Shown here: one piece after another, positions 7,083 through 46,590 of the stretch
Position numbering within the stretch: the first letter of the stretch is position 1
How the letters are laid out: each line of letters opens with the position of its first letter
Notes under the pieces: generated by a model
The model's input: only the letters and a program-made list of their open reading frames with translations
The model's database searches: none
What the model was told of the DNA's origin: nothing
Assembly: GCA_039193195.1 (NCBI GenBank)
Contig: JBCCWS010000004.1
Coordinates: 1-64,000, forward strand
Source: Pseudomonadota bacterium
GTDB lineage: Bacteria > Pseudomonadota > Gammaproteobacteria > Steroidobacterales > JBCBZW01
Reading direction: 5' to 3'
DNA length: 64,000 nt
Position numbers and translations under genes: made by a program

Positions 7083-7403
7083 ATGAAGGGCGATATCGGC
7101 AAGCTGATGAAGCAGGCGCAAAAGATGCAGGCCGACATGCAGCGTGCGCAAGATGAGCTGGCCAACGTTGAGGTGACCGGCCAGTCCGGCGGTGGCATGG
7201 TGAACGTGACGATGACCTGCAAGCATGAGGTGAAGTCGATCACGATCGATGATGCGTCGGCGATGGAAGATAAGGAGATGCTCGAGGATCTCGTCGCCGC
7301 GGCGGTCAACGACGCCCTGCGCAAGGTTGAGGAAACCTCCAAGGAGCGTATGTCGGGGCTAGCCGCAGGCCTGATGCCTCCCGGTATGAAGCTCCCCTTC
7401 TGA
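7083..7403 (+). CDS. ybaB: YbaB/EbfC family nucleoid-associated protein
   Basis: A 106-residue dimeric DNA-binding protein. It starts with the Lys/Gln/Met-rich helix typical of the family ([19 protein letters not shown]), followed by the sheet region [22 protein letters not shown] and a C-terminal helix. AGAGGA lies about 5 bases before ATG. It sits between dnaX and recR as in most proteobacteria and likely helps organise DNA; its exact role in recombination or replication is not settled in any species I know of. Confidence 0.95.
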
Positions 7404-7419
7404 ACCCGCACTTACGTTT

Positions 7420-8016
7420 GTGATCTACTCGCCACTGCTTACGCGCCTCATCGACGCACTGCGTTGCCTTCCGGGGGTAGGTCCGAAGAGCGCGCAGCGC
7501 ATGGCATTCCATCTTCTCGACCGCGATCGGGAGGCGGCTCGCACGCTGGCGAGCGTGCTGGCAGATGCGGCAGAGCGGATGGGGCGTTGCCGCGATTGCC
7601 GCATGCTAAGTGAAGTCGACCTGTGCGCTATCTGCGCATCGCCGCGCCGCGATGACGGGCTACTTTGCGTCGTGGAGTCACCTGCCGACGTGGTTGCGAT
7701 AGAACAGACCGCGGATTACTCGGGTAAGTACTTCGTGCTGATGGGGCACCTCTCGCCCCTGGATGGCATCGGCCCCGCCGAACTTGGCCTCGATGTACTC
7801 GAACAGCGCCTCAGCGAACGCACACCCCGCGAGCTGATCTTAGCCACCAACCCGACCGTCGAGGGCGAGGCCACGGCGCACTACGTGGGAGAGCTCGCCC
7901 GCGAGGCTGGCGTGCAGGTGACGCGCATCGCCCACGGCGTTCCCCTTGGCGGAGAGCTGGAGTACGTGGATGCGGGCACTCTGGCTCACGCCTTGTCCGG
8001 GCGCCAACGCTTCTGA
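7420..8016 (+). CDS. recR: Recombination protein RecR
   Basis: 198 residues, the standard length. It has the N-terminal helix-hairpin-helix ([20 protein letters not shown]), the four-cysteine zinc finger (CRDC...CAIC), a Toprim domain with [12 protein letters not shown], and the C-terminal Walker-B-like element. With RecF/RecO it loads RecA at single-strand gaps. The start is a GTG 16 bases after the ybaB stop, giving the standard N-terminus [14 protein letters not shown]; the genes are presumably cotranscribed. Confidence 0.96.
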
Positions 8017-8101
8017 GAGGTCGCGGCCCCGGCTATGTACGCTGGCAGACCGGTGCTCTTGGGGTAAGCCCATACGCGCCCGTTCGCGCTGGGTCTGATC
8101 C

Positions 8102-9103
8102 CTAGTGATGTCCGCGACTCAGCGTTTCCATTAGGCGAACAAGGCGGCGGTAGCTCTCGTAGCGACGCGGGGCGAGTGAATGCGGCCCATCACCCTGCGC
8201 TGCTGCGCGTACCGCACAGCCTGGCTCGTGCATGTGTAGGCAATTGTGGAAGCGACAGCCGTGTGCCAAGGCACGAATCTCTCGAAAGCCCACTGCCACG
8301 TCCGCCTTCGCGACCCGACCTGGCGCATAGTCTCGCACCCCGGGTGAGTCGATCACCTGTCCGCCCCGGGGAAGGTGATGAAGGTGGGCAGCGGTGGTCG
8401 TATGGCGCCCCTCGCCGGAGCTCTCCGACAGCTCGCCGGTGGCGAGCCGCAGGTCAGGCACCAGAGCGTTTAGAAGCGATGATTTGCCCACCCCCGACTG
8501 TCCCACGAGAATCGAGGTGTCGTCCCGCAAGGCGTCGCTGAGCCTCGTGATGGCGGACGCCTCGCCGACGCTCACGGGTAAGGTCTCGTAGCCGGCGTGG
8601 CGCCACTCGTCGAATGCGCGTTCGAGCAGACCGCTGTCGTTCGGTGAGGGGAGATCTGCTTTACTGCGAACGATCAGCGCCTTGCATCCCATGAGCTCAG
8701 CTTGCGCCAGGTAACGATCCACCATGAAGGGGTCTGGTGCGGGGGCCGGTGCAACGACGACCACTAGACGGGTGAGATTCGCTGCCAGCACCTCGTTGAA
8801 GCCGCGAAGGTTGGGACGCTCCAGGGCATTCTCACGCGGCTCGACATTGAGCACTTGGCCGTCGCGCGCACCGCCTTGGGCCCGCTGCCAGCGCACCTGA
8901 TCGCCGCAGACGATACGCAGCTTGCGCCCCCGCGGCACGCAGCGGTGGCGCTTACGGGGCGCAGCCCCTAGCTCCTCTACCAGGCAGCGTCGGCCGAAGC
9001 TGGCGACCACCAGGCCCGCCTCAGCGGCTTGCGAAGATCCGCTCGTGTGCGCTCCTCGCGCCTCCTGCGCTCGCCGCTCGCGACGTCGCCCTCCAGCGGG
9101 CAC
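8102..9103 (-). CDS. rsgA: Small ribosomal subunit biogenesis GTPase RsgA
   Basis: A circularly permuted GTPase that checks late maturation of the 30S subunit. Domains in order: a basic N-terminal tail, an OB fold (about residues 25-95), the GTPase core with G4-like RSKADL first, then G1 GQSGVGKSS, switch region GEGRHTTT and G3 DSPGVRDY, and a C-terminal zinc knuckle with C-x6-7-C-x-H-x5-C spacing (CRFHNCLHMHEPGC). 333 residues. The GTG start lies 12 bases after the stop of the M48 protease gene, so the two form an operon, divergent from orn, a frequent arrangement. Confidence 0.94.
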   Translation of the reverse strand: MPAGGRRRERRAQEARGAHTSGSSQAAEAGLVVASFGRRCLVEELGAAPRKRHRCVPRGRKLRIVCGDQVRWQRAQGGARDGQVLNVEPRENALERPNLRGFNEVLAANLTRLVVVVAPAPAPDPFMVDRYLAQAELMGCKALIVRSKADLPSPNDSGLLERAFDEWRHAGYETLPVSVGEASAITRLSDALRDDTSILVGQSGVGKSSLLNALVPDLRLATGELSESSGEGRHTTTAAHLHHLPRGGQVIDSPGVRDYAPGRVAKADVAVGFREIRALAHGCRFHNCLHMHEPGCAVRAAAQGDGPHSLAPRRYESYRRLVRLMETLSRGHH

Positions 9104-9115
9104 AGGTATATCGGC

Positions 9116-10366
9116 TCAGCGGCTGTTGGCGAGTTGACTCAAGCGTGCGATGCGAATCGGGGCGGGAGGGTGGGAGTCGTAGAAGCGCGAGTGTGTCTCG
9201 TCCGGCGTCAGGGTGTTCGAGTTGTCCCGGTAGAGCTTCACCAGGGCTTCGATCAGCGCCGTGGGATCGGACTGCTCCGCCGCGTATTCGTCCGCCTCGA
9301 ACTCGTCTCTGCGCGAGAGGGCAGCGGTGATCGGCGTCATCGGGAAGGTGAAGACCGGAGAGATGACCAGCGCGAGGAGCAGGGCCAGCGCATCGGTCGG
9401 CACGGTGATCCCAAGCGCCGCCATCGCATCCGGTGACGCACGCAGCCAGCCGATCAAGGCTAAGCCAACTAGGGTCATAGCGAAGCTTTTCATTAGGCGT
9501 TTGCGCACGTGCTGACGGCGGAAATGCCCAAGTTCGTGGGCCAGTACGGCCTCGATCTCCTGACCGTTGAGGGACTCGAGTAGCGTGTCGAAGAAGACGA
9601 TGCGCTTGTTATTGCCCATGCCGGTAAAGTAGGCGTTTCCGTGGCTGGAGCGGCGTGAGCCGTCCATTACGAAAACACCCTGGCTCTTGAACCCGCACCG
9701 CTGCAGGAGCGATTCGATTTGCGCCTTCAGGCCAGCGTCCGTGAGTTCGGTGAAGCGGTTGAACAGGGGAGCGATGAACGCCGGGTACAGGTAGAACAGT
9801 GCGAGGCTGAACGCCACCCACACAACCCACGCGTACAACCACCACAGGCTGCCTGCCGCGGCCATCAGCCACAGCACCACAGCGATCATGGGCGTGCCGA
9901 GCACCGCCATCAAAACGAGCGACTTGAGTTGATCGGAAATGAACAGGCTCGGGGTCATGCGGTTAAACCCAAAGCGCGCCTCGATGCGGAAGGTGCGCCA
10001 GATCGCTAGGGGCAATTCGAGCGCAGACATCGCGATGAAGGCCAACAAGGTCACCAAGGTGCCCGTCAGCAGGGGGCCCAGACTGAGGGCGGAGACGAGC
10101 GAGTGCACGAGCATCAGGCCACCGCCGAGGGTCCACAGGAGCAGCAGTATCGCGTCCACCAAGGTACCGACGCGGCTGAGGCGCGTGGTGGCCATCGTGT
10201 AGTCCGCGGCCTTGTGGTGCTGTTCGAGGGAGATCGTGTCGTCGAAGGGGGCTGGGACACGTTCGCGACCGCGGCGTACGGCGGCGATCTGTCGGCTGCT
10301 GAGCCACAGGCGCACGATAGTGGTGGCGGCTAGCAGGGCCAGGAAAAGGGGCGTCATCCAGTGCAT
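9116..10366 (-). CDS. M48 family (Ste24/CAAX-like) membrane zinc metalloprotease
   Basis: 416 residues with several N-terminal transmembrane helices corresponding to the Ste24-type N-terminal domain (LFLALLAATTIVRLWLSS; LVDAILLLLWTLGGGLML). The zinc site is VLAHELGHFRRQH (HExxH, residues about 280), with the third ligand Glu probably in RRDEFEADEYAA. Further membrane helices flank the site. Bacterial members are thought to degrade misfolded membrane proteins; the physiological substrate here is unknown. First gene of a two-gene unit with rsgA, divergent from orn. Confidence 0.9.
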   Translation of the reverse strand: MHWMTPLFLALLAATTIVRLWLSSRQIAAVRRGRERVPAPFDDTISLEQHHKAADYTMATTRLSRVGTLVDAILLLLWTLGGGLMLVHSLVSALSLGPLLTGTLVTLLAFIAMSALELPLAIWRTFRIEARFGFNRMTPSLFISDQLKSLVLMAVLGTPMIAVVLWLMAAAGSLWWLYAWVVWVAFSLALFYLYPAFIAPLFNRFTELTDAGLKAQIESLLQRCGFKSQGVFVMDGSRRSSHGNAYFTGMGNNKRIVFFDTLLESLNGQEIEAVLAHELGHFRRQHVRKRLMKSFAMTLVGLALIGWLRASPDAMAALGITVPTDALALLLALVISPVFTFPMTPITAALSRRDEFEADEYAAEQSDPTALIEALVKLYRDNSNTLTPDETHSRFYDSHPPAPIRIARLSQLANSR

Positions 10367-10569
10367 CGTTGGGTAGTGTCCTAGCTCGTTGATTAGCTTC
10401 GCGTTCGAGACCGTCTGGGCGTGTCGTTGGGCCCCGATGGTAGTGGTATTCCCCTACTGCGCTCAAGATTTCCGCGCTAGACAGGGTGGAGGTGTGGGCG
10501 CCCGCGCGTGTTTGCAAGAGTGGCGCAAGCATAGGCGCTCGGGCGGCTGCGCTGCTAGACTCCTATCGT

Positions 10570-11124
10570 ATGGTAGCAAGCCCTGAAAACCTGATCTGGA
10601 TAGACCTGGAAATGACCGGTCTCGACACCGTGAATGACCAGATCATCGAAATCGCGACCGTGGTCACCGATAAGCACCTCGGGCTGATCGCCGAAGGTCC
10701 TGTCCTCGCCATTCACCAGCCCGACGAGGTGCTGGAGGGAATGGACGATTGGAACAAGCGCACGCATGGGGAATCGGGTCTCCTCGATCGCGTGCGTGCG
10801 AGCACGACCACTCCGCAAGAGGCTCAGGACCAAACCCTGGACTTTCTGCGCCAACTCGTGCCCCCCCGTAACTCTCCCATGTGTGGCAGCAGTATCTGCC
10901 AGGACCGGCGCTTCATGGCCCGTCTAATGCCCGATCTCGAGCGCTTCTTTCACTACCGAAACCTTGATGTGAGCACGCTCAAAGAGCTAGCCAAGCGCTG
11001 GGCACCGGACATGGCTGTCCGCTTTGAAAAGCGCGCACCGCACGTGGCCCTGGACGACATCCGCGAGTCTATCCGAGAGCTTCGCTTCTATCGGGAGCAC
11101 TTCATCTCGCTGCCCAACAACTAG
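10570..11124 (+). CDS. orn: Oligoribonuclease (3'-5' exoribonuclease)
   Basis: A DEDDh exonuclease of 184 residues that degrades 2-5-nt RNAs and pGpG, finishing cyclic-di-GMP turnover. Catalytic acids appear in [10 protein letters not shown], in the middle motif [20 protein letters not shown], and in the C-terminal [14 protein letters not shown] (the His general base and last Asp). The ATG at 10570 gives the expected N-terminus; a longer frame upstream lacks similarity. Its presence is relevant to the PilZ protein in this window, which presumably reads c-di-GMP. Confidence 0.96.
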
Positions 11125-11153
11125 CTCGTCTCGACGGCTGTGAGATCCAGCGA

Positions 11154-11762
11154 ATGAAACCGTTCGCCCCCGCCTGCGAGCGAAACCGCGACCCCATACT
11201 CGAGAAATTGCGCCCGACTCTTGCGCAATGGGTCAGGCCGCGTGTACTTGAAATTGGGTCAGGCACGGGGCAGCACGGCGTCTACTTCGCGGCGGCCCTG
11301 CCGCACCTCACGTGGATTATGAGCGATCGACGCGAAAACCACGCGGGCATTGAGGCGTGGCGTGAGGAAGCTGCTCTGGACAACGTCGAGGGGCCACACG
11401 TGCTTGACGTCGCCGACTTCGAAGCGGCGTTTCGACCTGCCGTGGAGGCGGTGTACAGCGCCAATACGGCCCATATCATGAGCTGGAAGCAGGTCACTCA
11501 GATGGTCTCGCTGGCGTCGAGAAGTCTACTGTCCGGCGGGGTATTTCTTCTGTACGGCCCCTTCAAGCGCGGCGGTGAACACACGAGTGAGGGCAACGAG
11601 CGCTTCGACGGCGCCTTGCGCGAGTCTGCTCCCCACATGGGTATCCGTGATCTAGAGGCCCTCGATGCGCTGGCGGCGAAGGCCCAGCTCCATTGCGAGG
11701 AAGTCCACCAAATGCCGGCCAATAACTTGCTCGTTCGCTGGCGCTCGGCGGGCAGCGCCTAA
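11154..11762 (+). CDS. DUF938 family SAM-dependent methyltransferase
   Basis: 202 residues. The N-terminus KPFAPACERNRDPILEKL and SAM motif I VLEIGSGTGQHGVYFAAALP match the DUF938 family of class I methyltransferases. The substrate is unknown in the family. It begins 29 bases after the orn stop and may be cotranscribed. Its stop codon overlaps that of the convergent efflux adaptor by 4 bases. Confidence 0.88.
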   Translation: MKPFAPACERNRDPILEKLRPTLAQWVRPRVLEIGSGTGQHGVYFAAALPHLTWIMSDRRENHAGIEAWREEAALDNVEGPHVLDVADFEAAFRPAVEAVYSANTAHIMSWKQVTQMVSLASRSLLSGGVFLLYGPFKRGGEHTSEGNERFDGALRESAPHMGIRDLEALDALAAKAQLHCEEVHQMPANNLLVRWRSAGSA

Positions 11763-12895
11763 CCTTCCTCGCTGACCTCTACCGCGGCGGGACCGAGCGG
11801 TTCCGGGGCGGCCAGCACCCGTACCTTGGTGCCGGGCATGAGGCGTTCGGCACCACGCACTACCACCCGGTCCCCAGGCTGCAGGTCGCCAGTGACGGCG
11901 ATCAGAGCCCCATCCGAGAGCCCGGTGCCGACATCCACACGTTCCGCTGTGTCATCGGCGTTGACGCGCATGACATAGGTATCTTCCTGGCGCAACACCA
12001 GGGCATCGCGCGGCACGGCCAAGACCTCCTGGGGCACCGACACCGGCACTTGCAGCACTACTGCTTGCGCGATCAACCAATCCTCGGCGGGCACGTCGAT
12101 GCGCATCTCGTACATGTGACGGGTGGAGTCTCCGAATGGCACGATCGTGCGTACGAGGCCGTCGCCCCGACGCCCCGTCTCGTCAGCGACCTTCACGTTG
12201 CCACCCACGTAGAGATAGCGCGCGGCGGTGACGGTGGTTTGCGACACGATCTCGATGCGCTCGTTGCCGACCACCCGCAGCACCTGGTCGCCGACCGCCA
12301 CCCGTTCGCCCGGATTGACGAACCGTTGGGTGATCGTGCCGCCGAAGGGTGCCCGCAACGCGGCCCGGTCGAGGTTGATCTGGTTCTGCGCCAGGCGCGC
12401 ATCGATCACATCGCGATCGCGGGCGGAGACGTCGCGTTGGGATCGCGTGTCGTCGAGCTCTCGCTCCGCCGCCACGTTGGTCGCGGCCAACGTGGTGAGG
12501 CGGTCTACTTCGCGCTCGAGAAAGGCTAGCTGGCTTTCGGCGCGGGCGCGTTCCGCGTTGATCTGGGCCCGTTCTTGGCGCAGCAGGGCGTCGTCCACCT
12601 GGGCGATGACATCGCCGGCCGATACGCGATCGCCCACCTCGGCAAGGCTCACTAATCGGCCTGCTGCCTCTGCCGCGAGGCGGGTGTCATCGCGGCTTAT
12701 CACCGATCCAGGCACGGGAATCGTGGGTGCCAGGGAGGTGATCTGTGCGCGCTCCACACGCACCGGCGGCGGCGGAAACCCCTCTGGAGGCTGCCCCTGA
12801 GCGAGTGAGCTCGGCGCCGCCATCACCAGCAACAGGGACAGCGTGCCGCTCGCCGTCCGGCGAGGGCAGTCGGTGCAAAAGGTAGCTTCGGTCAT
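11759..12895 (-). CDS. RND efflux periplasmic adaptor subunit (membrane fusion protein)
   Basis: 378 residues with an N-terminal signal peptide (hydrophobic segment GTLSLLLVMAAPSSLAQG). The order is typical of AcrA/MexA-like adaptors: a lipoyl half-motif (GRLVSLAEVGDRVSAGDVIAQVD), an alpha-helical hairpin of about 75 residues, the second lipoyl half (LRAPFGGTITQRFVNPGERV), then beta-barrel and membrane-proximal domains. It would bridge the inner-membrane pump to an outer-membrane channel. The ATG overlaps the stop of the upstream permease gene (ATGA). Here the permease precedes the adaptor, the reverse of the acrAB order. No TolC-like gene is present. Confidence 0.9.
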   Translation of the reverse strand: MTEATFCTDCPRRTASGTLSLLLVMAAPSSLAQGQPPEGFPPPPVRVERAQITSLAPTIPVPGSVISRDDTRLAAEAAGRLVSLAEVGDRVSAGDVIAQVDDALLRQERAQINAERARAESQLAFLEREVDRLTTLAATNVAAERELDDTRSQRDVSARDRDVIDARLAQNQINLDRAALRAPFGGTITQRFVNPGERVAVGDQVLRVVGNERIEIVSQTTVTAARYLYVGGNVKVADETGRRGDGLVRTIVPFGDSTRHMYEMRIDVPAEDWLIAQAVVLQVPVSVPQEVLAVPRDALVLRQEDTYVMRVNADDTAERVDVGTGLSDGALIAVTGDLQPGDRVVVRGAERLMPGTKVRVLAAPEPLGPAAVEVSEEG

Positions 12896-39818: not shown

Positions 39819-40055
39819 CTAGGCCCTGAGCATTGCGTAGAGCTGATCCTTGTGCAGGAGTCGCATTCGTTTCAGCTCGGTGGTGTAGCGGTCTGAGTGC
39901 ACGGTGCGGCGAAGGCCCGTTCGCACAACTTCCTTGTTGACCCGTTGGTAGTCGTCGTAGAGCTCAGCGAACTCGTTGCTCGACTCCCGCAGCGTAGCGA
40001 TACGATCCCGATACTCCGGGAATTCCTCGGCCAGGTCGTGACTTTCTCCAATCAT
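39819..40055 (-). CDS. YdcH/DUF465 family small protein
   Basis: 78 residues, two predicted helices (DLAEEFPEYRDRIATLRES; RYTTELKRMRLLHKDQLYAML), which is the DUF465 pattern with the terminal KRxRLxLKDxL-like motif. Cytoplasmic, function unknown in the family. A perfect AGGAGG at 40061-40066 fixes the start at 40055 instead of the longer frame to 40103. Confidence 0.85.
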   Translation of the reverse strand: MIGESHDLAEEFPEYRDRIATLRESSNEFAELYDDYQRVNKEVVRTGLRRTVHSDRYTTELKRMRLLHKDQLYAMLRA

Positions 40056-40221
40056 GCGCACCTCCTGAAGGGGCGGTGGGTGGACGGATAAGTCGAAGTT
40101 CACTCGAATCTATCGTACCTGCCCCGGGCTGTCACGCACGTCTAATGACGAGACTGCCGCGGGTCCACGCGTCAGGTCGCAAGACGGCCCAGGCGTAGTA
40201 GACTGGTCGATTCCGGGCCTG

Positions 40222-42549
40222 ATGATGACGCTGCGGTTCGAACGCGCCGCGGTCTCGGCTTTGTCGTCCCGCCGCAAAGGGCCCGCGGGGGGCGCCCCAA
40301 ATGAGGAGACTCCTGCTCTGAGTGCTGCCACCCGACATCCGCCCACCCGCTCTCGCGCCAAACCTGCTGCAGCCGCGATCGATTTAAACGATCCGGCCCT
40401 GTACCTAAATCGCGAGCTGACCTGGCTCGACTTCAACCTTCGGGTGCTCAACGAAGCCAGTGACTCGCGCACGCCGCTGCTCGAGCGGGTGAAATTCCTC
40501 GCCATCGTAAGCGGCAATCTAGACGAATTCTTCATGAAGCGTATCGGTGGTTTGCGCAACCTCGTGATGGCGGGCATCACCGATCGAAGCCCAGACGGGC
40601 GTACGCCGAGCGAACTGATCGAGGCCTGCCGCACTAAGATTACTGCGGTGCAGCGCCAACGCGAGGCGATCTTCGAGGAGGTTGTCGCGGACTTGGATGC
40701 AGCCGGCATAGGAATCTGTCGTTGGCAAGATCTGTCGCCTGGAGCGCGGACCAAGCTGCGCGACCACTTTATTCGCAACGTCTATCCGCTGATCACGCCC
40801 TTGGGCATGGATCCCGGTCACCCCTTTCCCTTCATCTCGAACTTGGCACTCAACCTGCTGGTCACGATGCACTATCCGGCGGAGCGCGAGCAGCGCATCG
40901 CGAGGGTCAAGGTGCCCGTGACTGACGATGTGGTGCCGCGCTTGCAGCGGGTGGAGCACAGCAACCGCTTCGTCCTCCTCGAAGACGTGATGGCCAACAA
41001 CCTGGATCTGCTCTTTCCCGGGATGCAGGTGGAGAGCTGCAGCCTGTTCCGCGTGACTCGCAACGCACGCCTGGACCTGCCGCAAGTCGACAGCGGTGAC
41101 CTACTGGAGCTCATCGAAAGCGGCCTGGAGGAGCAGCCGTTCAAGCCCATCGTCCGACTGCAGGTGGATGCGCAGATGAGGCCGCAGCTGCGCAGGACCC
41201 TAATGACCCGGCTTGGCCTGCAGCCGGAGGATGTTTACCCCGTGCGGGGGATGATCGCCATGCGCAGCCTGTTCGAGATCGCCGCGCTCGATATCTCATC
41301 ACTGAAGCCCGCGCCACATCACCCGGTTGATCACCCGCGACTCGCGCATGACTCGCGCAACATGTTCCAGCTGATTCGCTCCGGCGGACCGATGCTCGTG
41401 CAACATCCCTACGAGTCCTTCACCTCGTCCGTGGAACGCTTCCTTCGTACCGCATCTCTGGACCCCGACGTCTTAGCTATCAAGATGACGTTGTACCGGA
41501 CCTCCAACGAGGGAAAGGTCATCCAGTATCTGGTGGACGCTGCGCGCAACCGCAAGCACGTCGCCGTGTTGGTCGAGTTGCAGGCCCGCTTTGATGAGGC
41601 GGCCAACATCCGTTGGGCCAAGCGCTTGGAGGAAGCAGGCGTCCACGTGACCTACGGGGTTTTGGGACTAAAGACCCACACGAAGTTGATTCACGTGGTG
41701 CGCCGTGACCACGACGGTCTGCGCCGTTACATGCATATCGGCACCGGAAACTACCACTCGGGCACCGCGCGGTTGTACTCCGATATCGGCCTGTTCACCT
41801 GCGATGAAAGCATAGGCGCCGATGTTACAGAGCTTTTCAATTACCTGACGGGATATCCCACTCCGCGACGCTATGGGAAGGTATTGTGCGCCCCCGAAAC
41901 CTTGAAGGCCGGGCTGATTTCACGCATCGAGCGCGAAATCGAGCGGCATAGCGACACTCATCCTGGGCGCATCCAATTTAAGTGCAACGCGCTCGAAGAT
42001 GTCGATGTGGTGCGTGCCCTGTATCGCGCGTCGATGGCAGGCGTTACGATTGACCTCATCATTCGCGATACATGCCGGCTGCGGCCCGGGCTCGCTGGTG
42101 TAAGCGAGAACATCCGAGTGATCAGTATTGTTGGCCGCTTTCTTGAGCACGCCAGAGTTTTTTACTTCAACAACGGTGGTGATGAGGAATACTGGATAGG
42201 GTCGGCTGACATCATGCGTCGCAATCTAGAATCGCGGGTGGAGGTGATCGCCCCGATCGAAGATGCAGATTTGCGAGCACAGCTTCGCTTGATGCTCAAC
42301 GTGCAGCTCGGTGATGCGAGAAGCGCTTGGGATATGAGGTCAGACGGCACGTACGTACAACGGCAACCGGCAACTCATCGAGAAAAGCAGGGAAGCCAGG
42401 AAACGCTGATCGCGATCGCCGCAAGACGCGCGTCCGCAGCGTTGAAGCGCAGGGAAAAAAGCCTGAACGACAGGCTGGCCAGACAGTTCAGTCGGCGCCT
42501 CGAGCGTCGCTCCGCCAGGGGGTTCCCAAGCGACGATGGATCGCGCTAG
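40222..42549 (+). CDS. ppk1: Polyphosphate kinase 1
   Basis: 775 residues. Polymerises the gamma phosphate of ATP into polyphosphate. After an unusual N-terminal extension of about 55 residues rich in Arg, Lys, Ala and Pro comes the normal start LNRELTWLDFNLRVLNEA, then the head domain and the two phospholipase-D-like catalytic domains. The autophosphorylated His is His505 in YMHIGTGNYH; a second catalytic region is YFNNGGDEEYWIGSADIMRRNL. The C-terminus also carries about 55 extra basic residues (AARRASAALKRREKSLNDRL). First gene of a set with a CHAD protein and a ParA ATPase. Confidence 0.96.
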   Translation: MMTLRFERAAVSALSSRRKGPAGGAPNEETPALSAATRHPPTRSRAKPAAAAIDLNDPALYLNRELTWLDFNLRVLNEASDSRTPLLERVKFLAIVSGNLDEFFMKRIGGLRNLVMAGITDRSPDGRTPSELIEACRTKITAVQRQREAIFEEVVADLDAAGIGICRWQDLSPGARTKLRDHFIRNVYPLITPLGMDPGHPFPFISNLALNLLVTMHYPAEREQRIARVKVPVTDDVVPRLQRVEHSNRFVLLEDVMANNLDLLFPGMQVESCSLFRVTRNARLDLPQVDSGDLLELIESGLEEQPFKPIVRLQVDAQMRPQLRRTLMTRLGLQPEDVYPVRGMIAMRSLFEIAALDISSLKPAPHHPVDHPRLAHDSRNMFQLIRSGGPMLVQHPYESFTSSVERFLRTASLDPDVLAIKMTLYRTSNEGKVIQYLVDAARNRKHVAVLVELQARFDEAANIRWAKRLEEAGVHVTYGVLGLKTHTKLIHVVRRDHDGLRRYMHIGTGNYHSGTARLYSDIGLFTCDESIGADVTELFNYLTGYPTPRRYGKVLCAPETLKAGLISRIEREIERHSDTHPGRIQFKCNALEDVDVVRALYRASMAGVTIDLIIRDTCRLRPGLAGVSENIRVISIVGRFLEHARVFYFNNGGDEEYWIGSADIMRRNLESRVEVIAPIEDADLRAQLRLMLNVQLGDARSAWDMRSDGTYVQRQPATHREKQGSQETLIAIAARRASAALKRREKSLNDRLARQFSRRLERRSARGFPSDDGSR

Positions 42550-42614
42550 CGGGAAGCGGCGGCACGGCGTCGAGCAAGCGGCGCCGGGGAGCTGAGCGGC
42601 TGCGGTTGCAGACG

Positions 42615-42636
42615 CCCCGCGCGTCTGGACGCGGGG
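42615..42636 (+). promoter_or_regulatory. Hairpin covering the ribosome-binding region of the CHAD gene
   Basis: CCCCGCG (42615-42621) pairs with CGCGGGG (42630-42636) around an 8-base loop. The GGGG in its 3' arm is the only Shine-Dalgarno-like sequence before ATG 42641. Folding would hide it, so the hairpin could limit CHAD translation relative to ppk1. It might also be chance in GC-rich sequence. Confidence 0.35.
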
Positions 42637-42640
42637 ATTA

Positions 42641-44197
42641 ATGAGACACGAATACGCGCTGCCCGAGGAATTCGCGGCGGCAGACATCGCCGACACGCTG
42701 TGTCAGCGCTTTGCGCTGCAGGATCTCGGCGCCCAGCGATGGGTGATCTGCTACTTCGATACCTTCGATTGGCGGCTCTTCAACCAGGGCTACGTGCTGG
42801 AGGAGCATCGCAACGGCTCCTCCAATCACTTGCACTGGCGTTGTTTGGTGAACGGTGCACCAGAGCGGGTGCTGCCCAATGCGCGTATGCCGCACTTCGC
42901 TCACGAGCTTCCTGTCGGGGCGTTTCGCGATCGCCTGTCGGGGTTCACCGAGCCCCGCGCCCTGTTGCCGCAGGTGATCGTGCGCACGCAGGCACACACG
43001 CTGAACTTCGAGAACGAACACGGCAAGACGCTTGCTCAGCTGATCTTCGAGACGGGGAGTCTGGCAGACGGCAATCATTCCAAAGCCGCTCCGGTGGTCA
43101 GCCGGCGGCTGCGCTTGCTGCCCCTGCGAGGTTACGAGGAAAGCTGCAAGGCGCTGACCCGCGAGGTGAAGCGGCTTGGCTTGCAGCTCGCCGCACGGGA
43201 TCTGATGGTCGATGCGCTGGCGTTCAGTGGCCGGCGACCGGCGAGCTACGTGGTCCGCCCGCGCGTGGTCCTCGAGCCGCAAGCGCGTACGGACGAGGGC
43301 GCACGACAGCTGCTAGCCGCCTTCTTCGGGGTTATGCGGTGCAATTTGCCCGGCGTGCGGGCGCGTACGGACGCGGAGTTTCTTCACGACTTCCGCACTT
43401 CTGTGCGCCGCGCGCGTGCCTTGCTCGGTGAGCTCGACGGCGTGTTCCCTAAGCGTACGCTCGAGCGCTACCGCCGGGACCTAAAGTGGCTCGGGGACAT
43501 TACCGGCGACGCGCGCGACCTCGACGTGTTGGTGCTATCCCTCGATGAGTATGCCGACATGCTCGAGGGGCCGGTGCGCGATGCCTTTGCGAGCCACTGT
43601 CGGGCCTTCGTCGCGCGCGAGCTGGAGCAAGCCTACGAACGACTCCACGAGCGCCTGGCATCCGTACGCTTCGAGCGCTTGGTGAGTTCCCTTCAGGACT
43701 TCGTTGCCTCGCCGGTGCCTCGGCGCACGCCCCTAGCGCACGCGATGCTACCCATCGAAGGCTTTGCACGAGAGCGCCTCCGACGCCGCCTTCGCAAGCT
43801 GCGCAAGGCGGCCGCCAACGCAGGAAGCGGGGAGGACGCGCAAGGGCTGCATGACGCGCGCATCATCGCCAAGCGTTGCCGCTACCTGCTCGATGCCTTC
43901 GCCACGCTCCTGCCGGGGCGCGAGGTGCGTGCGCTGCGCCGCCAGCTCAAACTGCTGCAGGATCAGCTTGGCACGCACCACGACTGCTACGTTCACGAGC
44001 AGCGGCTGAGCACACTGTCCGAGCGGATGCGCCTGCAAGACGCTCTGACCCCGGCCGTCGCGAGCGCGATCAGACAGCTGCGCGCCGGGCTGCAAGGCAA
44101 GCAGCGGAGCCTTGGGCGAGAGGCGGCCACGTTGCTCGGGGCCTTCGCTGGCAAGGAGATGCGAGCGCTCAGCAAGGCCCTGTTTGCCAACTTATGA
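42641..44197 (+). CDS. CYTH-like/CHAD domain protein (polyphosphate-associated)
   Basis: 518 residues. The N-terminal ~210 residues resemble a CYTH beta-tunnel (YFDTFDWRLFNQGYVLEEH) but lack the ExExK start and most charged tunnel residues, so catalysis is doubtful. Residues about 215-510 form a CHAD domain: two helical repeats with conserved His and basic residues, FLHDFRTSVRRARALLGEL and LHDARIIAKRCRYLLDAFA. CHAD domains bind polyphosphate and target proteins to polyphosphate granules. Its stop overlaps the ParA start (ATGA), and ppk1 lies 91 bases upstream, so granule binding is the expected role. Confidence 0.88.
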   Translation: MRHEYALPEEFAAADIADTLCQRFALQDLGAQRWVICYFDTFDWRLFNQGYVLEEHRNGSSNHLHWRCLVNGAPERVLPNARMPHFAHELPVGAFRDRLSGFTEPRALLPQVIVRTQAHTLNFENEHGKTLAQLIFETGSLADGNHSKAAPVVSRRLRLLPLRGYEESCKALTREVKRLGLQLAARDLMVDALAFSGRRPASYVVRPRVVLEPQARTDEGARQLLAAFFGVMRCNLPGVRARTDAEFLHDFRTSVRRARALLGELDGVFPKRTLERYRRDLKWLGDITGDARDLDVLVLSLDEYADMLEGPVRDAFASHCRAFVARELEQAYERLHERLASVRFERLVSSLQDFVASPVPRRTPLAHAMLPIEGFARERLRRRLRKLRKAAANAGSGEDAQGLHDARIIAKRCRYLLDAFATLLPGREVRALRRQLKLLQDQLGTHHDCYVHEQRLSTLSERMRLQDALTPAVASAIRQLRAGLQGKQRSLGREAATLLGAFAGKEMRALSKALFANL

Positions 44198-44946
44198 CGT
44201 CGATTATCGGCAGTTTCGCGATCAAGGGTGGCGTGGGCAAGACGGCCACGGTGGTCAACTTGGCTTACCTGGCTGCTTGCGAAGGTGCACGGACGCTAGT
44301 TTGGGATCTCGACCCCCAAGGCGCCGTCAGCTTTTACTACCGTATGCAGCCGGCAGCCGGTGGTGGGGTCAAGAGCTTGCTACGCGAGCGTGGCCGGCTC
44401 GCCCACGCCGTACGCAGCACCGACTACGCCAATCTCGACCTGATTCCAGCGGACCCTAAGCACCGCAAGCTCGAGCGCCTCGTGCATCAGATCAGCAAAC
44501 CGCATCAGCTCCTTGCGGCCCGCCTGAAGACCCTGCGCCACGACTACGACTTTGTCTTTCTCGACTGCCCTGCCGGCTACACTCGCTTTACGCAAAGCGT
44601 GCTGCGCTGCCTAGACGCACTCATCATCCCCATCGTGCCGACAACCCTGTCCATGCGCACCTGGGAGCAGCTGCTGGCAGAACTTGATGGCAAGCGTTCC
44701 TCATCTATGCAGCTGCTGCCCTTCTTCTCTATGTGCGACCGACGCAAGCAGATGCACCGAGAGATCATGGACAGCGAGCTTCCCGGGAAGGTAAGCCCGC
44801 TGACCCACGGTGTGCCTTACGCCGTCGACGTGGAGCGAATGGGGGTCAAGCGTCAGCCAGTCGATCGCTTCGCGAGCACTAGTGATGCAGCCATGGCGTA
44901 CCGCGGAATGTGGGACGAGATCAAGCTGCGAATGGCGGCGCGCTAA
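44194..44946 (+). CDS. ParA/MinD-family ATPase linked to the polyphosphate genes
   Basis: 250 residues. The deviant Walker A KGGVGKTA near residue 11 with its signature Lys, the second motif LVWDLDPQGAVSFYY and the Walker B FVFLDCPAGY are those of ParA-type cargo-positioning ATPases. No DNA-binding HTH precedes them, as in small orphan ParAs that position cellular cargo rather than plasmid ParA. The ATG overlaps the CHAD stop by 4 bases (ATGA), so the CHAD protein is the natural adaptor candidate. No ParB lies nearby, which argues against chromosome segregation. Confidence 0.9.
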   Translation: MTSIIGSFAIKGGVGKTATVVNLAYLAACEGARTLVWDLDPQGAVSFYYRMQPAAGGGVKSLLRERGRLAHAVRSTDYANLDLIPADPKHRKLERLVHQISKPHQLLAARLKTLRHDYDFVFLDCPAGYTRFTQSVLRCLDALIIPIVPTTLSMRTWEQLLAELDGKRSSSMQLLPFFSMCDRRKQMHREIMDSELPGKVSPLTHGVPYAVDVERMGVKRQPVDRFASTSDAAMAYRGMWDEIKLRMAAR

Positions 44947-45275: not shown

Positions 45276-46010
45276 ATGACCTCAAGTAACCTAGCTCGCG
45301 CACTACTGCTCGGCTCCGCCCTGGCGCTCGGTGCCCAAGTGGCCGTCGCCGACCATCACGACGACCCGGGTTTTAGCCGCGCCATTACCGTCTGGTGGGT
45401 GATATTCAACAACCCCGATGCCTGCACGGAAAATCCCGGCGCTGCCGAGCAGTGCGGCCCGACCGATATCTTTGGCGCGGCCTACGTAGAGTCCATCGAG
45501 AATGGCGCGCCTGATCCTGGGCTGATCGCCCCCAACGAGGCCGCACAGATCGCCGTGGTCTTCGCCACCGGTGGTACCACCACCAATCGAGGTGGAATTC
45601 GCTTGGTCGGGGCGATCTATCGCTCAGCGGCCGGCGGCGGCTTGGATCTTGGGAGCGGGACGCTGGTCGATCCCATGGGCTTCGGGCGGGGATACGAGAA
45701 TCCCCAGGCAGAGGTGCACCTCGTGGTGCGGGATCACGGCAAGGCGCATCCCGTTCGCGGCGAGCTGCGACATCAGATTCTCAACTTCCTCGAGCCCTAC
45801 TGCTCAGATCCGAACCTCGACTACTACTCTGGCCCTAACTTGTGCCGCGATGCACAGTTCGCCCAGTTCGCACCGGCGGAGACCGGGGCCGACGCCATGT
45901 TCGAATTCCATGATCCGTCACACGCGGTGCACGGCGCGCGCGCCTACCTTGAGCGCAACGGCGACATGATGCAGTTCATCATTGAAACCCGCGTCACTCC
46001 CGCGCCGTAG
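45276..46010 (+). CDS. Secreted protein of unknown function
   Basis: 244 residues. A signal peptide (ARALLLGSALALGAQVAVA) is followed by the His/Asp-rich mature start DHHDDPG, then a compact beta-rich domain with FSRAITVWWVIFNNP, AEVHLVVRDHGKAHP and a C-terminal MMQFIIETRVTP. Four cysteines in the mature part (two in CTENPGAAEQC and two in CSDPNLDYYSGPNLC) could form disulfides, as expected in the periplasm. I do not recognise a named family. AGGAGG lies 5-6 bases before the ATG and a strong terminator follows, so it is expressed as a single gene. Confidence 0.75.
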   Translation: MTSSNLARALLLGSALALGAQVAVADHHDDPGFSRAITVWWVIFNNPDACTENPGAAEQCGPTDIFGAAYVESIENGAPDPGLIAPNEAAQIAVVFATGGTTTNRGGIRLVGAIYRSAAGGGLDLGSGTLVDPMGFGRGYENPQAEVHLVVRDHGKAHPVRGELRHQILNFLEPYCSDPNLDYYSGPNLCRDAQFAQFAPAETGADAMFEFHDPSHAVHGARAYLERNGDMMQFIIETRVTPAP

Positions 46011-46098: not shown

Positions 46099-46590
46099 TC
46101 ACCGTGCCGTGGCGGGCGGAGTGCCGTCCCAGTCGCGGTAGGGGCACCTGGCTAGGTAGACGTTGTAGTAGCGCTTATCCATGGAGACTTCCTGCCCAAG
46201 CCAGTCAGGTCTTGGGTGCGCTTGATCTGGCGAGGCGAGTTCGATCTCCGCGACGATCAAGCCAGCATTCGCCGCCTCGAACTCGTCGATCTCCCAGACG
46301 AACTGCCCGTCCGGGACGTAGTGACGGGTCTTTTCCACCGGATGGTCGGCGCAGAGAGGAAACAAGGCGAGCGCCTGTGCTAGGGGAATCGGAAACTCGA
46401 ACTCCTGGCGCTCAATCGAGAGTGTGCTGCTCTTGATATTCAAGTTTGCCTGCTCGCCCTCCACGCGCACGCGCACCGATGCCCGGCCGGCCTCGCTGAG
46501 GTAGGCCTGGCGCATCGTCACGGAGCGACTCACCAGCGGTCGCCAACCCTCATGGCGTAGGAGGAACTTGCGCTCGATTTCCTGTCCCAA
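46099..46590 (-). CDS. CYTH domain triphosphatase (triphosphate tunnel metalloenzyme)
   Basis: 163 residues. The opening motif EIERKFLL is the ExExK signature, and RVRVEGEQANLNIK and WEIDEFEAANAGLIVAEIEL supply the acidic and basic residues lining the tunnel. Bacterial stand-alone members hydrolyse inorganic tripolyphosphate or NTPs. TTG start 5 bases after the gpmA stop, so translation follows gpmA. It may process short polyphosphates, which would link it to the ppk1 cluster about 1.9 kb away, but that is inference. Confidence 0.88.
   Translation of the reverse strand: MGQEIERKFLLRHEGWRPLVSRSVTMRQAYLSEAGRASVRVRVEGEQANLNIKSSTLSIERQEFEFPIPLAQALALFPLCADHPVEKTRHYVPDGQFVWEIDEFEAANAGLIVAEIELASPDQAHPRPDWLGQEVSMDKRYYNVYLARCPYRDWDGTPPATAR

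Follow-up and report, generated by a model that had tools for sequence, protein, structure and literature searches.

A ppk1-CHAD-ParA gene cluster as a candidate system for making and distributing polyphosphate granules

Main finding and gene cluster

A gene cluster that probably makes and distributes polyphosphate granules lies at 40222-44946 of the window, that is, of the whole 64,000-nucleotide stretch of DNA analysed here (contig JBCCWS010000004.1 of a Pseudomonadota draft genome of 6.7 Mb). It consists of ppk1, a CHAD gene and the gene of a ParA-type ATPase, in this order on the plus strand. The CHAD-ParA arrangement recurs far beyond chance, the window ParA belongs to a subfamily of its own, and the CHAD protein of Chlorobaculum tepidum that was crystallised in complex with polyphosphate itself belongs to such a pair. 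Since the pair is conserved, ppk1 is enriched nearby, the C. tepidum CHAD gene stands beside the same ParA and the polyphosphate-binding residues are invariant, this ParA is very likely to be tied functionally to polyphosphate; granule positioning is rather likely as its function, and a direct role of the CHAD protein as the adaptor is slightly favoured. On our analysis, the most economical reading is most likely an McdAB-like system with the polyphosphate granule as its cargo. The features of the cluster are as follows:

40222-42549, plus strand: ppk1, polyphosphate kinase 1, 775 amino acids (aa); four Pfam domains over their cut-offs and an NCBIfam match
42641-44197, plus strand: CHAD gene, 518 aa; predicted degenerate CYTH/triphosphate-tunnel fold (N-terminal) and a long CHAD domain (Pfam, predicted structure)
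44194-44946, plus strand: ParA-type ATPase, 250 aa, from a separate subfamily; AAA_31, Walker A motif KGGVGKT
44194-44197, plus strand: ATGA overlap of the CHAD stop and the ParA start (sequence)

The ppk1 product matches PP_kinase_N, PP_kinase, PP_kinase_C_1 and PP_kinase_C above the Pfam cut-offs, and the NCBIfam family poly_P_kin (polyphosphate kinase 1) with 759 bits against a cut-off of 465.85. The stop of the CHAD gene and the start of the ParA gene overlap as ATGA within TTATGACG, and judging from this sequence, the two genes are likely to be translationally coupled. The mechanically called open reading frame (ORF) of ParA opens earlier, at a TTG at 43876; the start was placed at 44194 because this position fits the ParA relatives. 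The one-strand order and the ATGA overlap on which the original prediction was built are thus borne out by coordinates, family matches and sequence.

Conservation of the CHAD-ParA pair

Full-length orthologs of the window ParA were found in 4 of 59 relatives (48-90% identity), genome G004 carries the start of a fifth at a contig end, and a CHAD gene lies directly upstream in all five loci. As a control, 24 loci of other ParAs from the relatives (2.1-3.6 kb each) contained no CHAD gene. A collection of 84,980 species was also scanned and the best 80 ParA loci were kept, 49 of which have CHAD upstream of ParA. The gap between the two genes was measured in 46 of these 49 (the other three, with KGGIGKT, were missed by the motif used), and it is the 4-base overlap in 22 and at most 70 bases in 44. 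The linked loci among the best 80 come from Gammaproteobacteria, Nitrosomonas, Nitrotoga, Alphaproteobacteria, Acidobacteriota, Calditrichota, Desulfobacteraceae and Desulfuromonadales, and one is from a metagenome-assembled genome of Acidimicrobiia, which could be misbinned.

In a class sample of 321 genomes, where at most eight candidates were scored per genome and ParA loci were accepted at an expect value (E) up to 1e-45, 52 ParA loci were present in 51 genomes, with CHAD directly upstream in 38. A CHAD match over the cut-off was present in 45 of the 51 ParA genomes vs 104 of the 321 overall (Fisher p = 1.3e-19, uncorrected for relatedness); this count leaves out four genomes whose CHAD match is below the family cut-off, takes the ParA of G371, split in two pieces, as one locus, includes the ParA of G258 with its in-frame stop, and has among the 45 genomes G248, in which CHAD is present only as a stop-ridden fragment. 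Because the two sets overlap in part, the scan and class-sample counts are not to be summed. In a sample from another phylum (247 genomes, the phylum of a Ferruginibacter genome) there were 60 ParA loci in 59 genomes; CHAD adjoins ParA at 49, and for six more a long CHAD was located on a different contig. Here the CHAD places were taken from the ParA-bearing genomes and a few others; one adjacent CHAD, in G603, is a fragment, and one G603 fragment on another contig was excluded. The expectation that the ppk1/CHAD/ParA neighbourhood would be conserved outside this genome therefore stood up to a search of many genomes, with adjacency in several phyla and ppk1 enriched nearby.

Polyphosphate genes near the ParA gene

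The pair is also present in the C. tepidum locus (L205), where the crystallised chain (CtCHAD) matches the CHAD protein with 100% identity over 313 residues; 2 bases separate the end of the CHAD gene (7942-9510) from the ParA ortholog (7196-7939), and ppk1 (10551-12737) lies upstream of CHAD on the same strand, with one 273-aa gene in between. In L207 and L208, ppk1, CHAD and ParA likewise follow in that order on one strand, and the same three genes, with a convergent CYTH gene downstream, were found in four relatives (L133-L136) and in L058. In the 51 fetched regions of the class sample, to which the window is additional, ppk1 was found in 8 on either strand vs 0.21 expected (p = 6.6e-11), where the regions average 13.7 kb, many end at contig ends, and the expectation assumes one copy of the gene per genome of 3.4 Mb. 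In L178 (5671-8689), ppk1 stops 7 bases before the ParA start with no CHAD near, which is an independent tie of this ParA to polyphosphate without the CHAD adaptor.

Neighbouring genes of 136 loci, from overlapping sets, were clustered by single linkage, and the cluster representatives alone were checked against Pfam. Clusters of PPK1 (17), CYTH (7), PPK2 (6) and Ppx/GppA (5) were obtained, together with genes of histidine phosphatases of about 170 aa (L154:9919-10425 and 23 more, i.e., 24 loci, mostly beside CHAD-ParA pairs), which we take to be SixA-like, and a periplasmic binding protein cluster in 8 loci, presumably PstS-like.

These data bear on the possibility that this ParA has a general cargo or one other than polyphosphate granules, such as a chromosome or another storage body, and that its place beside CHAD is an inherited gene order without meaning. 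In its favour, Bacteroidetes have this ParA without an adjacent CHAD, and a glycogen phosphorylase-type gene stands near ParA in 8 Methylococcales loci. Set against these are the CHAD-ParA adjacency, often ATGA-coupled, which is kept across phyla at 39-49% ParA identity, the recurrence of PPK1, PPK2 and Ppx/GppA genes near ParA, and the lack of a ParB match near the window ParA, and we regard such a general role as quite improbable.

The glycogen phosphorylase-type loci are L041 (5750-9191), L039, L043, L050, L055, L064, L067 and L094; the gene is on the same strand in seven of the eight, and was confirmed by Pfam in L041 and assigned by clustering in the others. L039 and L064 have CHAD upstream too. 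These neighbours may hint at a second storage-polymer link. As for the 273-aa protein between ppk1 and CHAD in L205 (9531-10352), it is repeat-rich by eye and has no Pfam match.

The CHAD protein

The CHAD domain occupies residues 224-456 (Pfam, E = 2.7e-50). The AlphaFold model of the protein has a mean predicted local distance difference test score (pLDDT) of 93.0 and a predicted template-modelling score (pTM) of 0.89, and its CHAD half aligns structurally with 6QV7 (Z = 34.8, 314 residues). Among solved structures, the CHAD family is closest to the C. tepidum chains 3E0S and 6QV7/6QVA (about 326 bits). In the excerpts of the structural study that treat binding (Lorenzo-Orts et al., PMC6537752; the other articles are likewise cited for excerpts), polyphosphate sits in the pore of CtCHAD, and binding is weakened by combined mutation of H253, R256 and R260, then R296 and R418/Y419. 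These six residues correspond to H249, R252, R256, R292, R414 and Y415 of the window protein, and none of them varies among the 45 aligned CHADs, so that the window protein has the central residues of the CHAD phosins. Known CHAD phosins, in particular CtCHAD (6QV7, 6QVA, 3E0S) and E. coli YgiF, share with it the long CHAD domain and the same central polyphosphate-binding residues, and the CtCHAD gene also adjoins a gene of this ParA subfamily. Under the assumption of an equal numbering offset, the positions of K441 and R438, both distal and mutation-tested in CtCHAD, hold a basic residue in all 45 and in at least 36 of the 45 aligned proteins, respectively. The role of polyphosphate binder that had been assigned to the CHAD protein gains support from the invariant mutation-tested residues and the C. 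tepidum match.

The label "CYTH-like", given to the same protein in the original prediction, is borne out by the predicted fold and finds no support in the sequence. In the predicted structure, the N-terminal half (residues ~1-204) adopts a CYTH/triphosphate-tunnel fold (175 residues aligned to 5a68, Z = 15.5, root-mean-square deviation 3.1). At the level of sequence, the window protein has no Pfam CYTH match, and hhalign gave a probability of 0.3% for its N-terminal half against an alignment of stand-alone CYTH proteins, i.e., no detectable similarity, so that evidence for CYTH from sequence had to be dropped. The motif ExExK, which we take to be the CYTH signature, is intact in all nine stand-alone CYTH rows. 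Because a tunnel fold is present without CYTH sequence similarity or ExExK, we read the N-terminal half as a non-catalytic, possibly protein-binding domain.

A different reading has been published for the ppk-parA-CHAD neighbourhood of Acidithiobacillus, with conserved active-site residues reported there (PMC6416229): the CHAD protein would be a class IV adenylyl cyclase or a polyphosphatase in cAMP or phosphate signalling, with ParA as a link to cell division. The predicted tunnel fold of the N-terminal half would suit it. ExExK, however, was seen in none of 16 aligned N-terminal halves (by eye) and none of 19 scanned ParA-linked CHADs, sets that do not include the Acidithiobacillus proteins, yet it is found in the stand-alone CYTH proteins, and we hold a signalling enzyme to be very improbable.

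Two further candidate traits of the CHAD proteins were discarded. A C-terminal F..LF helix (by eye) was considered as a motif particular to ParA-linked CHADs and does not discriminate, because it is also present in ParA-less members of the linked CHAD type. DNA-binding tails are not a general rule either: more than 12 Lys/Arg per 30 residues were found in 6 of 91 CHAD entries (two overlapping sets), and by reading, added tails are present only in L099 and L088. These Lys-rich tails belong to the CHAD proteins at L099:318-2318 and L088:7163-8995; the one of L099 comes after a helix-hairpin-helix match (HHH_5) below the cut-off (17.4 vs 27 bits), and this arrangement brings to mind PhaH and AlgP, granule proteins that bind DNA.

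The ParA subfamily

The window ParA matches AAA_31 (Pfam, E = 3e-27), and its residues K11, G12, G13, G15, K16, T17, D40 and D124 are invariant in 50 aligned ParA rows, with V14 nearly so. It thus carries the deviant Walker A signature of the ParA/MinD family, KGGxxK(S/T), with the signature lysine and the conserved aspartates, which we take to be those of the A' and B motifs. The predicted model (pLDDT 89.7) has the ParA fold, with TM scores, by query length, of 0.90 to 8ray, 0.84 to 1wcv and 0.87 to McdA 6nop. With the ParA profile A2 in nine genomes, orthologs score 353-420 bits vs at most 135 for all other listed matches, and in a tree of 115 rows, 109 subfamily members are split from 6 generic ParAs with support 100/100, where the bootstrap had not settled, usable rows came from 6 of 13 requested outgroup loci and most linked loci of the class sample were not entered.

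A genome-wide search for ParB_N gave a single match (G000:C2:290634), which is beside a different ParA (C2:289663), and no parB adjoins the window ParA, so that it has no ParABS arrangement. Because the only ParB_N match of the genome adjoins another ParA, and because the scores of the subfamily in the nine genomes separate cleanly from those of other ParAs, a role as the chromosomal partition ParA was rejected.

The main rival explanation gives the ATPase a part in regulation: it would act on PPK1 or CHAD as an ATP-dependent scaffold or switch and so control how polyphosphate is made or how granules nucleate, and its loss would alter the number of granules or the quantity of polymer, with no part in spacing. 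BcsQ, an orphan ParA associated with the synthase of a polymer, cellulose, would be a rough parallel (PMC9178275). The genetic evidence is identical to that for positioning, and ppk1 can adjoin ParA directly without CHAD. However, among solved structures the ParA model matches Soj/ParA chains best and McdA next, with BcsQ further down, the Walker A motif is KGGVGKT as against RGGVGTT in BcsQ (PMC9178275), and in the class sample ParA adjoins CHAD more often than ppk1 occurs in the flanks. We therefore consider regulation unlikely, and prefer granule positioning.

Proposed function and points against it

In the proposed positioning mechanism, PPK1 would make polyphosphate, and the CHAD protein would coat the polymer, with the CHAD domain making contact through its basic pore and surface, and would recruit the co-translated ParA-type ATPase, probably by the degenerate CYTH/tunnel domain or another exposed face. 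ATP-bound ParA dimers would bind the nucleoid non-specifically; CHAD-coated granules would stimulate ATP hydrolysis, deplete ParA locally and travel up the resulting ParA gradient. Granules would thereby be held apart and divided between daughter cells, as carboxysomes are by McdAB. That CHAD touches ParA, that ParA binds the nucleoid, that its ATPase is stimulated and that granules are spaced in this way is inferred, and we lean slightly towards a dedicated ATP-driven granule partition, with a CHAD adaptor and its own ParA subfamily, over several phyla, including the organism of the CHAD-polyphosphate crystal. As a whole, the earlier interpretation of the cluster is partly supported.

Several observations weigh against this proposal. 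There is no adjacent CHAD at 14 of the 52 class-sample ParA loci and at 31 of the best 80 scan loci, 6 of the 51 class-sample ParA genomes have no CHAD match over the cut-off, and Bacteroidetes genomes among the best 80 have this ParA but no CHAD of the linked type. Conversely, eight genomes with the linked CHAD type have only generic ParAs (at most 126 bits). Four mutation-tested back-face positions of CtCHAD vary in the aligned CHADs (numbering offset again assumed equal). The labelled ORFs of L133-L192 and of the scan loci include no protein in which CHAD and ParA are fused. Finally, the N-terminal basic peptide by which McdB contacts the ATPase McdA (PMC12204374) is not seen in the window CHAD protein, whose N-terminus MRHEYALP runs into the first strand.

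The 31 genomes with a non-adjacent ParA have a linked CHAD type elsewhere (12), short CHADs only (5) or no match (14). A clade of 22 tree rows lacks CHAD linkage and consists mostly of Bacteroidetes and genomes of the same phylum, with L065 labelled as Beijerinckiaceae. At four class-sample loci a short CHAD takes the place of the long one upstream of ParA; Pfam confirmed the CHAD domain in both loci checked (L165 and L172). On the other side, 25 CHAD regions not beside this ParA were compared, 23 from genomes without it and two being second copies in pair-bearing genomes; 8 are of the linked type (at least 238 bits, profile A3), 17 score at most 213 bits, and ExExK is present in 8 of the 25. 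ParA and CHAD are thus strongly, not obligately, coupled, and in some lineages the ParA probably works with another partner or cargo. No shared alternative adaptor emerged at the CHAD-less loci, those of the class sample entering the comparison as ORF lists only; the cluster representatives were UvrB, DNA polymerase I, glycogen phosphorylase, MgtE and others. Nor was a CHAD-PPK1 fusion found in the scan loci.

Many of the Bacteroidetes ParA loci (L068, L071, L072, L082, L083, L086, L090 and others) are near uvrB- or polA-type genes and an esterase-like gene of 243 aa.

Relation to known systems

The closest parallel is McdAB, where a ParA-type ATPase of the ParA/MinD fold is likewise encoded next to a partner whose binding target is a large body in the cytoplasm; here, in contrast, the partner is CHAD and not McdB, the cargo would be polyphosphate granules and not carboxysomes, and the Walker A motif is KGGVGKT and not the SGGQGKT of McdA (review PMC9178275). 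Even spacing of polyphosphate granules, as proposed here, is also the effect of AlgP in Pseudomonas aeruginosa, which, unlike the window cluster with its separate candidate ATPase, is a histone H1-like DNA-binding protein and no ATPase (PMC9239181, PMC13052382). A 2025 review describes polyphosphate granule positioning as unresolved, lists AlgP as the sole positioning protein in its table, and notes that the positioning proteins of Caulobacter are not identified and that energy expenditure remains to be seen (PMC13052382).

The same three gene types stand together in Acidithiobacillus (PMC6416229, PMC10892726), where the folD-ppk-parA-CHAD neighbourhood was read as cAMP signalling (PMC6416229) and its ParA was called a plasmid partition protein, beside a possible copper-resistance protein (PMC10892726); the excerpts of these papers, unlike our proposal, do not bring up granule positioning. 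A word search of the CtCHAD paper (PMC6537752) returned no "ParA", and one of the main text of a Halothiobacillus study of ParA/MinD cargos (PMC10241942) returned no "polyphosphate", "CHAD" or "ppk". In the open-licence literature searched, no paper was found that proposes this ParA for granule positioning. The CHAD-ParA pair is a strong, testable candidate for the machinery that spaces polyphosphate granules. By naming an ATPase and its likely adaptor in lineages that include laboratory strains (Chlorobaculum tepidum, Methylotuvimicrobium buryatense), the cluster reduces the question of granule spacing to two genes; a CHAD protein whose structure with polyphosphate is already solved thereby gains a possible role, and the range of ParA/MinD cargos probably grows by one. 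If true, polyphosphate granules would be actively partitioned, like plasmids and carboxysomes.

Other features of the window

Two genes follow the cluster:

45276-46010: 244-aa protein between the ParA and CYTH genes; no Pfam or NCBIfam match
46099-46590, minus strand: stand-alone CYTH protein, 163 aa, EIERK motif intact (Pfam CYTH, E = 5.9e-14); convergent with the cluster

A scan for regulatory sites gave 1 promoter-like site vs 1.1 in shuffled sequence, and 7 terminator-like sites vs 4.6 (standard deviation 1.8). A small DUF465 gene (39819-40103) is divergent from ppk1. The product of 45276-46010 is signal-peptide-like by eye, and a similar ORF is found at the equivalent place in a genome of the same genus (L003).

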